From: Chitinispirillales bacterium
Lineage (GTDB): Bacteria > Fibrobacterota > Chitinivibrionia > Chitinivibrionales > Chitinispirillaceae
Reading direction: 5' to 3'
Assembly (NCBI GenBank): GCA_031254105.1
Contig: JAIRVB010000051.1
Span: 1 to 57,813, forward strand
DNA length: 57,813 nucleotides
Shown here: positions 55,395 through 57,813 of the stretch, piece after piece
How positions within the stretch are numbered: position 1 is the first letter of the stretch
Layout of the letters: each line of letters opens with the position of its first letter
The notes under the pieces: generated by a model
What the model was told of the DNA's origin: nothing
Seen by the model: the letters and a program-made list of their open reading frames with translations, nothing else
The model's database searches: none
Made by a program: the position numbers and the translations under genes

Positions 55395-56285
55395 ATGATA
55401 ATCTTAAAAAGCATACTCCTCATTATCACACTCTTATCTTTTTCTATGATACAGTTTACTTGTGGCACAGAAGTGATTTATGTGGCAGGTGAAAAAGGTG
55501 AACCTGGTGAAAAAGGTGATCCTGGTGAAAAAGGTGATCCTGGTGAAAAAGGTGATCCTGGTGAAAAAGGTGATCCTGGTGAAAAAGGTGATCCTGGTGA
55601 AAAAGGTGATCCTGGTGTACCCAAAATTCAAAAGCGGGGTGGCGTTGTATTCACCTTTGATGATAGATTTGTGGACGCTTGGTATGATTTACATAGGTTA
55701 TTGGACGACACTGGTTGGAAAGCTACCTTTTTTATAAGTCGCTTTTATCAAAATACTTCTGAGCATATTGATAAATTGAAAAAAATGCAGGAGTACGGAC
55801 ATGAAATAGGGCATCATGGGCAAGGTCATCGACAAGCGGTAAATTATGTGCAGGAAAATGGGATTGAAGCTTATTTGGAAAATGAGATATATTCTCAAAA
55901 GCGGTTGATGGCCGAACACGGATTTCATCCAACAGCATTTGCGTATCCTTTCGGAAGCCGAAATACAACGATTGATTCTGTATTATTGAATGAATTCAAA
56001 ATTATTAGGGGAGTAACCAACGTTAGAAGTTCGGGTTACTACAACACTGGAGATAACCTCGTTTTTGGTTTAAGCATTGATGGGTTATCAGTGCCTACGG
56101 CATATGTTAAAGGTATTATTGACGAAGCAAGACGGGACGACAAGGTTGTAATTTTTTATGCACATGAAACCGTGCGATATATAACCGATAGTTATAAAAC
56201 AGAGATATTGGCAATGGTAGAATTAGTTAAATACGTAAACGACAACAACATGAACTTTGTAAAAATTTCAGACCTTAATCGTTAA
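55395..56285 (+). CDS. Lipoprotein polysaccharide deacetylase (NodB) with collagen-like repeat
   Basis: 296 residues. LKSILLIITLLSFSMIQFTC is a lipoprotein signal with Cys at about 23. Residues 32-73 are fourteen Gly-X-Y triplets (GEKGEP once, then GEKGDP six times), followed by a NodB domain: GGVVFTFDDRFVDAWYDLHRLL (TFDD metal Asp), GHEIGHHGQGH (metal His), FAYPFGSRN, and VVIFYAHETV near the end. It would deacetylate a cell-surface polysaccharide while tethered to a membrane through a collagen-like stalk. Last gene of the locus; the repeats may vary in number. Confidence 0.88.
   Translation: MIILKSILLIITLLSFSMIQFTCGTEVIYVAGEKGEPGEKGDPGEKGDPGEKGDPGEKGDPGEKGDPGEKGDPGVPKIQKRGGVVFTFDDRFVDAWYDLHRLLDDTGWKATFFISRFYQNTSEHIDKLKKMQEYGHEIGHHGQGHRQAVNYVQENGIEAYLENEIYSQKRLMAEHGFHPTAFAYPFGSRNTTIDSVLLNEFKIIRGVTNVRSSGYYNTGDNLVFGLSIDGLSVPTAYVKGIIDEARRDDKVVIFYAHETVRYITDSYKTEILAMVELVKYVNDNNMNFVKISDLNR
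55488..55613 (+). repeat. 18-nt tandem repeat, 7 units (collagen-like)
   Basis: GGTGAAAAAGGTGAACCT once, then GGTGAAAAAGGTGATCCT six times, with no base changes among the last six. The units are 18 bases, so copy-number change keeps the frame. Identity at third positions suggests recent expansion. Confidence 0.95.
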
Positions 56286-56324
56286 CAATCAGGGATTTAT
56301 AAAAACAGGAGGTGATCATTTCAA

Positions 56325-56417
56325 ATGCGTTATTTTACCACTATCTTTAAGATGTTTATATGTGTCTTGCTGCTTACATTTATCAAAACAGAGGGCATAG
56401 AGATTGTTGAGGAGTGA
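56325..56417 (+). CDS. 30-residue hydrophobic peptide, paralogue 1
   Basis: ATG 56325 to TGA 56417. MRYFTTIFKMFICVLLLTFI, then KTEGIEIVEE. One membrane-length hydrophobic stretch with a short basic start and an acidic tail. A strong ribosome site AGGAGGTGATC lies about ten bases upstream. A second copy at 57531-57623 shares 24 of 30 residues, and conservation starts at the ATG and ends at the stop, with flanks unrelated. It points into the 3' end of an Rpn nuclease gene, 23 bases away. It resembles type I toxin or small membrane proteins in size; function unknown. Confidence 0.7.
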   Translation: MRYFTTIFKMFICVLLLTFIKTEGIEIVEE

Positions 56418-56440
56418 GATGGATATGTGATCTGTGGATT

Positions 56441-57334
56441 TTACAGTTTCCCAATCTCTTCCTCACTCAACCCGGTAATTTTCGCGATTTTAGGTATTGC
56501 GAATTCATAATTTTTCATCTCTTTAGCGATTTTGCGTTGAGCATTGACGCTGCCTTCTATTCTACCTTTTTCCAAACCTTCTATTCTGCCTTCTTCTTTG
56601 CCTTCCAATTTCGCGGTGTATACGGTGCTTTCATTGCTGCGGCGTATGTCAACATACTCATCGTAGCGTTTCCGCTCCTCCGGACTCAAACTGCAATATT
56701 CCAGAACCTCGCTTGCTTCCGTTAAACCGGGAGCCTTAAAGTCAGGCTCAATCACGGAGTTCTTAAACAGATACATCCATTCGTCTAACTTGTCTTTGAC
56801 ATCATTATTGAAGCGATCAACCTTAAGCAGGTAAAATTCGGGGTAGATGTCTTTAATATCTATTTTTGCGAACTCCTCTTTCTGGCTGGGAGAGAGTTTG
56901 AGTTCATCGTCGTAATGCAAACCTTTGAAATTTGTTGTACCGTGATATATGTAATCTTTACCAACGCCTAAATCGAAGTAAACGATATTTATGGAATAGA
57001 CTTTTCTAACCATGGAATAGGGCATTCCCTTGTTTAGATAGTCTGTTATCGCTTTGCTTGAACCGAAGAGCATTCTGTGGAAATAATCTATTTCGGGTGT
57101 GAACTGAATTTCTATTATTGTTAAAGTGCCGTTTTCTTCCTCTGCTATTATATCAACCCGGTTGTACTTTTGCTCTTCTGTCTCTTTATCGCTTTCGCAG
57201 TCTTTAATGGTTTTAATTTTTATATCTTTGCCTAAGAGCGTAGTTAAGAAGCCCTCTAAAATTACATAGTTGGCTTTACGGCGCAATAAACTCTTTGCTG
57301 CCCAATCGAAAGATACAAGTGTGCGTTCGTTCAT
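56441..57334 (-). CDS. Rpn family PD-(D/E)XK nuclease (PF12784-like)
   Basis: 297 residues. FDWAAKSLLRRKANYVILEGFLTTLL is the Rpn start, RVDIIAEEENGTLTIIEIQFTPE holds D-x8-9-ExQ, the PD-(D/E)XK nuclease core, and YFHRMLFGSSKAITDYL follows. The C-terminal third contains repeated EGKEEGRIEGLEKGRIEGS and a small helical end LSEEEIGKL. E. coli Rpn proteins promote recombination and act in phage defence; some have intragenic antitoxins from internal starts. Convergent with the 30-residue peptide gene downstream. Confidence 0.88.
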   Translation of the reverse strand: MNERTLVSFDWAAKSLLRRKANYVILEGFLTTLLGKDIKIKTIKDCESDKETEEQKYNRVDIIAEEENGTLTIIEIQFTPEIDYFHRMLFGSSKAITDYLNKGMPYSMVRKVYSINIVYFDLGVGKDYIYHGTTNFKGLHYDDELKLSPSQKEEFAKIDIKDIYPEFYLLKVDRFNNDVKDKLDEWMYLFKNSVIEPDFKAPGLTEASEVLEYCSLSPEERKRYDEYVDIRRSNESTVYTAKLEGKEEGRIEGLEKGRIEGSVNAQRKIAKEMKNYEFAIPKIAKITGLSEEEIGKL

Positions 57335-57530
57335 ATCTCCTCATCTATTGCTATGCGTTTATAGAAAAAACACGCTTGCAGCGAAATTAACAATGAGAGT
57401 TGAAATGGGATGAAAAAACAGAGATTGAGAGAAACAACTTAATTATCAAAATAGTTTTTGCCGTCACCATTAACAAAATCCGTTTTGCGCGGAGAAAAGG
57501 ATAACCATTCTGGTTGAAAGAGAAAAAACA

Positions 57531-57623
57531 ATGCGTTATTTTATCACTATTTTTCAGCTGTTAATATGTGTCCTGCTGCTTACATTTATCAAAACAGAGG
57601 ACATAGAGAGCGTTGAGGAGTGA
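57531..57623 (+). CDS. 30-residue hydrophobic peptide, paralogue 2
   Basis: ATG 57531 to TGA 57623. MRYFITIFQLLICVLLLTFI, then KTEDIESVEE. Same length as paralogue 1 with six changes, mostly conservative in the membrane part, and several silent ones. The ribosome site is weaker (GAAAGAG about eight bases away). It lies 84 bases from the 3' end of a second Rpn gene, mirroring the first module. Confidence 0.65.
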   Translation: MRYFITIFQLLICVLLLTFIKTEDIESVEE

Positions 57624-57707
57624 GAACGCCGTCACTTCTCCCCTTTTCCGCATCTCTTTTATCATTTGTCACGGGAAAGGCCTTTGGAATAAATTAATAT
57701 TTTTGCC

Positions 57708-57813
57708 TCAACTAATCCCAAGCTTTTTCAAAGCTTCCTGTAAAGGTAAACCTTTTTCGATAAGTTCCGCAAGCTTTTTAGCGCCTTCTTTCTCGCCTTC
57801 TTCTCTGCCTTTT
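57708..57813 (-). CDS. Second Rpn-family nuclease, C-terminus only (partial)
   Basis: The minus strand from the window edge to TGA 57708-57710 encodes KGREEGEKEGAKKLAELIEK, then GLPLQEALKKLGIS. A Gly-Arg-Glu-Glu-Gly charged repeat followed by a short LPLxEALKKLGI helix is the usual C-terminus of Rpn/PD-(D/E)XK transposase-like proteins. The nuclease domain lies outside the window. Confidence 0.7.
   Translation of the reverse strand, partial: KGREEGEKEGAKKLAELIEKGLPLQEALKKLGIS

Follow-up and report, generated by a model that had tools for sequence, protein, structure and literature searches.

Five copies of a short repeat carrying a 30-codon open reading frame (mini-ORF) were found in one genome, four of them behind Rpn-type nuclease genes and one behind an HU-type gene. 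On balance, we explain it as a species-restricted passenger repeat of Rpn arrays, which probably encodes a small membrane peptide under purifying selection.

Copies of the mini-ORF and their flanks

The genome searched comprised 3.68 Mb in 56 contigs, and the window (the whole stretch of DNA analysed, 57,813 nt) was one whole contig, C43. The features of the window and the copies on other contigs (C21, C46, and C45) were as follows.

56302-56457, plus strand: repeat common to C43a and C21 (156 nt, 95% identity), which takes in the ribosome site and the last Rpn codons
56325-56417, plus strand: mini-ORF copy C43a, 30 codons, MRYFTTIFKMFICVLLLTFIKTEGIEIVEE
56441-57334, minus strand: Rpn family PD-(D/E)XK nuclease, 297 aa, tail type a (...GLSEEEIGKL), TIGR01784 and PF12784
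57531-57623, plus strand: mini-ORF copy C43b, 30 codons, without a Shine-Dalgarno motif, MRYFITIFQLLICVLLLTFIKTEDIESVEE
57531-57812, plus strand: stretch common to C43b and C45 (81% over 285 columns) that covers the ORF, the 3' flank, and a type-b Rpn tail
57708-57813, minus strand: second Rpn gene, 3' end only, with tail type b (...LGIS), stop at 57708, cut by the contig end
C21:1598-1693: mini-ORF copy C21, behind an HU-type gene, 95% identical to C43a
C46:62016-62109: mini-ORF copy C46, behind an Rpn gene, convergent
C45:141051-141143: mini-ORF copy C45, behind an Rpn gene, convergent

The two copies in the window were as first described: alignment of C43a with C43b showed 24 identical residues out of 30 (DNA identity 91% over 96 nt), and the two ORFs lay 23 and 84 nt beyond the 3' ends of convergent Rpn genes. 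The strong ribosome site reported for C43a was also confirmed (AGGAGGTGA, 9 nt before the ATG); this site was not kept across copies, with AGGAGG present only in C43a and C21, a weaker site in C45, and none in C43b and C46. The C46 copy had ACG where the others had ATG, and two copies seem degraded or ill suited to translation. Also in the window, a polysaccharide deacetylase gene (55395-56285, plus strand) encoded a protein with a collagen-like (GEKGDP)n stretch, built from near-exact 18-nt repeats, and with an N-terminus resembling that of lipoproteins.

The preliminary description held that the similarity is confined to the ORF, from ATG to TGA, as selection on a peptide would leave it, and that similarity extending well beyond the ORFs would point to a non-coding repeat. 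The limits were exact for C43a and C43b, but in other pairs homology ran into the flanks, with 24 to more than 200 nt shared upstream. C43a and C21 shared 24 nt upstream together with the last Rpn codons; C46 and C45 shared more than 200 nt of upstream non-coding DNA, at an identity about that of the ORF (90%); C43b and C45 shared the entire 3' flank and the Rpn tail. There were three upstream flank types (C43a/C21, C46/C45, and C43b) and two downstream flank types (type a in C43a, C21, and C46; type b in C43b and C45). The C46 copy was a chimera, with a left flank like that of C45, a right flank like that of C43a, and the repeat at their junction. Recombination in the Rpn arrays has left the copies as mosaics in which the ORF is what all types share, and the ATG and TGA limits of the C43a/C43b similarity are an accident of the copies compared.

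The gene before the C21 copy was taken to be HU-type from its sequence. The flank of this copy carried GGGAAACTGTAA, the last codons of a type-a Rpn gene; therefore, the copy seems to have been duplicated together with an Rpn end. Ahead of the HU-type gene and the mini-ORF, C21 contained a 285-aa gene (L002 190-1047) with no NCBIfam match, whose product presumably resembles PDDEXK nucleases; a similar gene adjoined an Rpn gene in C15 (L027).

Each of the contigs C43, C21, C46, and C45 ended within about 1.7 kb of a mini-ORF copy, and the end of C43 (window 57684-57813) matched the start of C21 (C21:1-131, L015) over 131 nt with 98% identity inside Rpn genes. The assembly therefore probably broke in Rpn repeats, and further array members or mini-ORF copies may be missing.

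Coding signal and predicted peptide

Alignment of the five copies showed that 20 of 93 positions varied, nine of them third positions, and that there were no indels and no internal stops, so that the frame length was kept. Frame-disrupting changes in further copies had been named as evidence against a peptide; none of this kind was present within the frame, but the start codon was lost in C46.

The codon model, fitted to five paralogues over 29 codons on the tree ((C43a,C21),C43b,(C46,C45)), gave an omega of 0.28, better than an omega of 1 (p 0.004), a result that gene conversion between copies may distort. The other five frames gave omega values of 0.48-1.48, none significant, and coding on the antisense strand was rejected since neither of its two partly open frames was significant in this model. 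In neutral simulations conditioned on an open frame, the synonymous fraction was 0.28 compared with 0.55 in the copies, a value reached in 0.65% of runs (P 0.0065). Column permutation of the five copies gave p 0.02. Twenty consecutive bases, TTACATTTATCAAAACAGAG, were invariant in all five copies with third positions included, which could reflect constraint on the DNA. According to these results, the ORF is rather likely to be coding. The earlier claim of selection on the peptide thus keeps moderate support from the codon model and the simulations, while its argument from the flanks fails over five copies.

A possible, less probable explanation is that the repeat is a non-coding hitchhiker, namely intergenic DNA duplicated together with Rpn genes, in which the open frame is accidental and the selection signal is a small-sample effect. 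The flanks were as conserved as the ORF in the pairs sharing flanks, the start was lost in C46, no orthologues were found in the searched collections, and about 58% of the neutral simulations left the frame open in all five copies. However, the codon-level constraint and the freedom from indels in five copies argue against it and for a coding repeat.

The peptide was 30 aa long and its best 15-residue mean hydropathy was 2.4, so that it is a short hydrophobic peptide, as a type I toxin would be; after shuffling, 2-5% of open frames with an equally T-rich composition reached this value. From these properties, the peptide may plausibly form a single membrane helix. No Pfam, PHROG, or PADLOC family matched the peptide. 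We infer that the repeat most likely encodes a small single-helix membrane peptide, translated in at least some copies, under purifying selection, and probably a young gene. If expressed, it would most likely insert into the inner membrane, as other short hydrophobic bacterial peptides do.

It was also considered whether the ORF encodes a toxic hydrophobic peptide of a type I toxin-like pair, with the read-through transcript of the convergent Rpn 3' end as the antisense antitoxin. The peptide is short, hydrophobic, and multi-copy, it lies antisense to an Rpn 3' end in four of the five copies, and no terminator-like site was found between the Rpn stop and the mini-ORF; the nuclease 3' transcript might, speculatively, act as such an antisense. 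However, there was no conserved RNA structure: the five-copy alignment contained no compensatory pairs among 29 predicted pairs, and only C43b folded somewhat better than shuffled sequences (z -2.2). There was no Rfam family match (ROSE_3 scored far below its cut-off) and no conserved promoter, as none stood out in the window and the upstream regions differed between copies. Behind the HU-type gene, moreover, the antisense to the C21 copy would come from the transcript of another gene. A type I pair is accordingly considered improbable.

Rpn arrays and distribution of the repeat

The neighbour of C43a was confirmed as an Rpn-type nuclease, matching TIGR01784 (E 3.4e-26; 92.7 bits against a curated cut-off of 52.1) and PF12784 (E 3.7e-22). 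Four Rpn paralogues contained a PD-(D/E)XK-type catalytic motif, VDIIAEEENGTLTIIEIQ, which we take to be the D...ExQ form. The array Rpn genes stood in tandem, with cores about 83% identical and with exchanged tails of types a, b, and c, and the tails held four-residue repeats (KEEG RIEG LEKG RIEG). Another intergenic stretch, about 180 nt long, was repeated upstream of array Rpn genes (L016 6154-6331 and 7149-7327; L017 6187-6366), its copies being 79-96% identical. Published rpn arrays were reported to arise when genomic regions are duplicated in tandem, the ends being variable and inverted repeats absent (Zhong et al., PMC10327210). The exchanged tails, the core identity, the repeated intergenic stretches, and the four-residue tail repeats found here fit that picture.

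The C-terminal tail of Rpn proteins is reported to be separately translated as the antitoxin RpnS (Zhong et al., PMC10327210). In three paralogues (C45, C46, and C37; L005, L004, and L025), an in-frame internal ATG within GLMEA might serve as the start of an RpnS-like tail protein, about 77-90 residues long; the ribosome sites ahead of it were weak, and the window copy had a Thr codon at this position.

The repeat unit of roughly 120-155 nt probably rides on duplication and recombination of Rpn genes: as tandem Rpn genes swap C-terminal tails, the repeat is brought along at their 3' ends. A DNA-level element, that is, a recombination or nuclease-related site at the 3' ends of Rpn cassettes serving as the crossover point for tail exchange, might account for the invariant 20-nt core run, the chimera junction of C46 at the repeat, and the presence of the repeat behind Rpn genes of both tail types, a and b. 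Several results speak against this. There were no terminal inverted repeats at the ends of the shared unit (the test for MITE or REP elements) and no palindrome kept in all copies; an integron-like attC site was rejected, as inspection by eye showed neither matching core sites nor a palindrome and no fold was conserved; Rpn genes without the repeat exist in the same genome, among them the second Rpn of C46, others, and that of C37, a close paralogue with the third tail type; and in the published view Rpn proteins are not transposases (PMC10327210). We give this explanation the lowest probability and keep to a passenger repeat that probably encodes a peptide.

Most Rpn genes elsewhere in the genome had no similar convergent ORF. 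The idea of diverged copies at further Rpn genes, among them those of C15 (L036) and C5 (L035), was rejected, the alignments being no better than with shuffled sequence. For a candidate in L042, the score of 35 exceeded the shuffled maximum (31), but its position relative to the Rpn 3' side was not copy-like; the resemblance of MKTEDILTIEE behind L036 had no DNA-level support.

Outside this genome, none of 23 further genomes from the family contained the repeat DNA. The peptide profile gave no credible match in 39 other genomes of the order, and none of 167 other genomes of the phylum matched at a credible score. A weak match (G015:C15, E 0.096) and a short one that fell within a different reading frame (G042:C2, E 0.007 per genome over 168 genomes) were taken as chance. 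The degenerate core pattern had no match in GTDB contigs or IMG/VR, and neither phages and plasmids nor a profile scan of viral contigs yielded a match to the peptide; these searches may omit the closest records to the genome of the window itself. The nuclease, for its part, matched GTDB contigs that were all labelled Candidatus Fibrimonadaceae, a hint that the organism is placed close to this family.

Absence of the peptide beside Rpn genes in related genomes had been named as evidence against the module, and it was indeed absent there: no similar convergent ORF lay behind the Rpn genes of relatives. The proposed nuclease-peptide module is further contradicted by several Rpn genes of the same genome that lack the peptide, by the copy behind a non-Rpn gene, and by the copy without a start codon. 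The results do not support a conserved defence module of Rpn and peptide, nor a functional tie of the peptide to the nuclease. A new species-specific membrane micropeptide that spread along with the arrays and is functionally coupled to the convergent Rpn, either as a membrane effector or as a toxin that the nuclease transcript silences, is very unlikely. Because the repeat was seen in no relative, it looks like a species-specific passenger of nuclease arrays, not an obligatory partner of the nuclease in a conserved two-gene system.

Comparison with known systems

An orphan small ORF in a duplicated array is an ordinary kind of finding. If the peptide is made, it would be a young orphan small protein spreading inside defence-nuclease arrays, and whether Rpn arrays carry accessory genes would become testable. 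If it is not made, the case gives a caution: a pair of paralogues whose homology ends at the ORF limits can mimic selection on a peptide when the flanks are mosaic.

Among known systems, Rpn (COG5464 / TIGR01784) with the intragenic RpnS shares with the present loci the Rpn-family neighbours, the arrays, and the variable tails with four-residue repeats. Known RpnS proteins consist of the C-terminal part of Rpn, made either in frame from the rpn gene or from a separate copy of this part downstream (PMC10327210). The mini-ORF peptide, in contrast, is unrelated to the tail, hydrophobic, and encoded on the opposite strand.

Type I toxin peptides (for example, Ibs, TisB, and Fst) are short, contain a single hydrophobic stretch and positively charged residues at the N-terminus, and are encoded in several copies with a gene on the opposite strand; Ibs/Sib is a multi-copy system of this type. 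The mini-ORF resembles them in all of these features, namely length, hydrophobic stretch, positive N-terminal residues, copy number, and opposite-strand gene. It differs in that it matched no family and that its opposite-strand partner is protein-coding. The repeat is also similar to the short intergenic repeats MITE and REP in being small, present in several copies, and variable in its flanks, whereas it differs from them in having no inverted repeats, in being tied to Rpn gene ends, and in its codon-level constraint.
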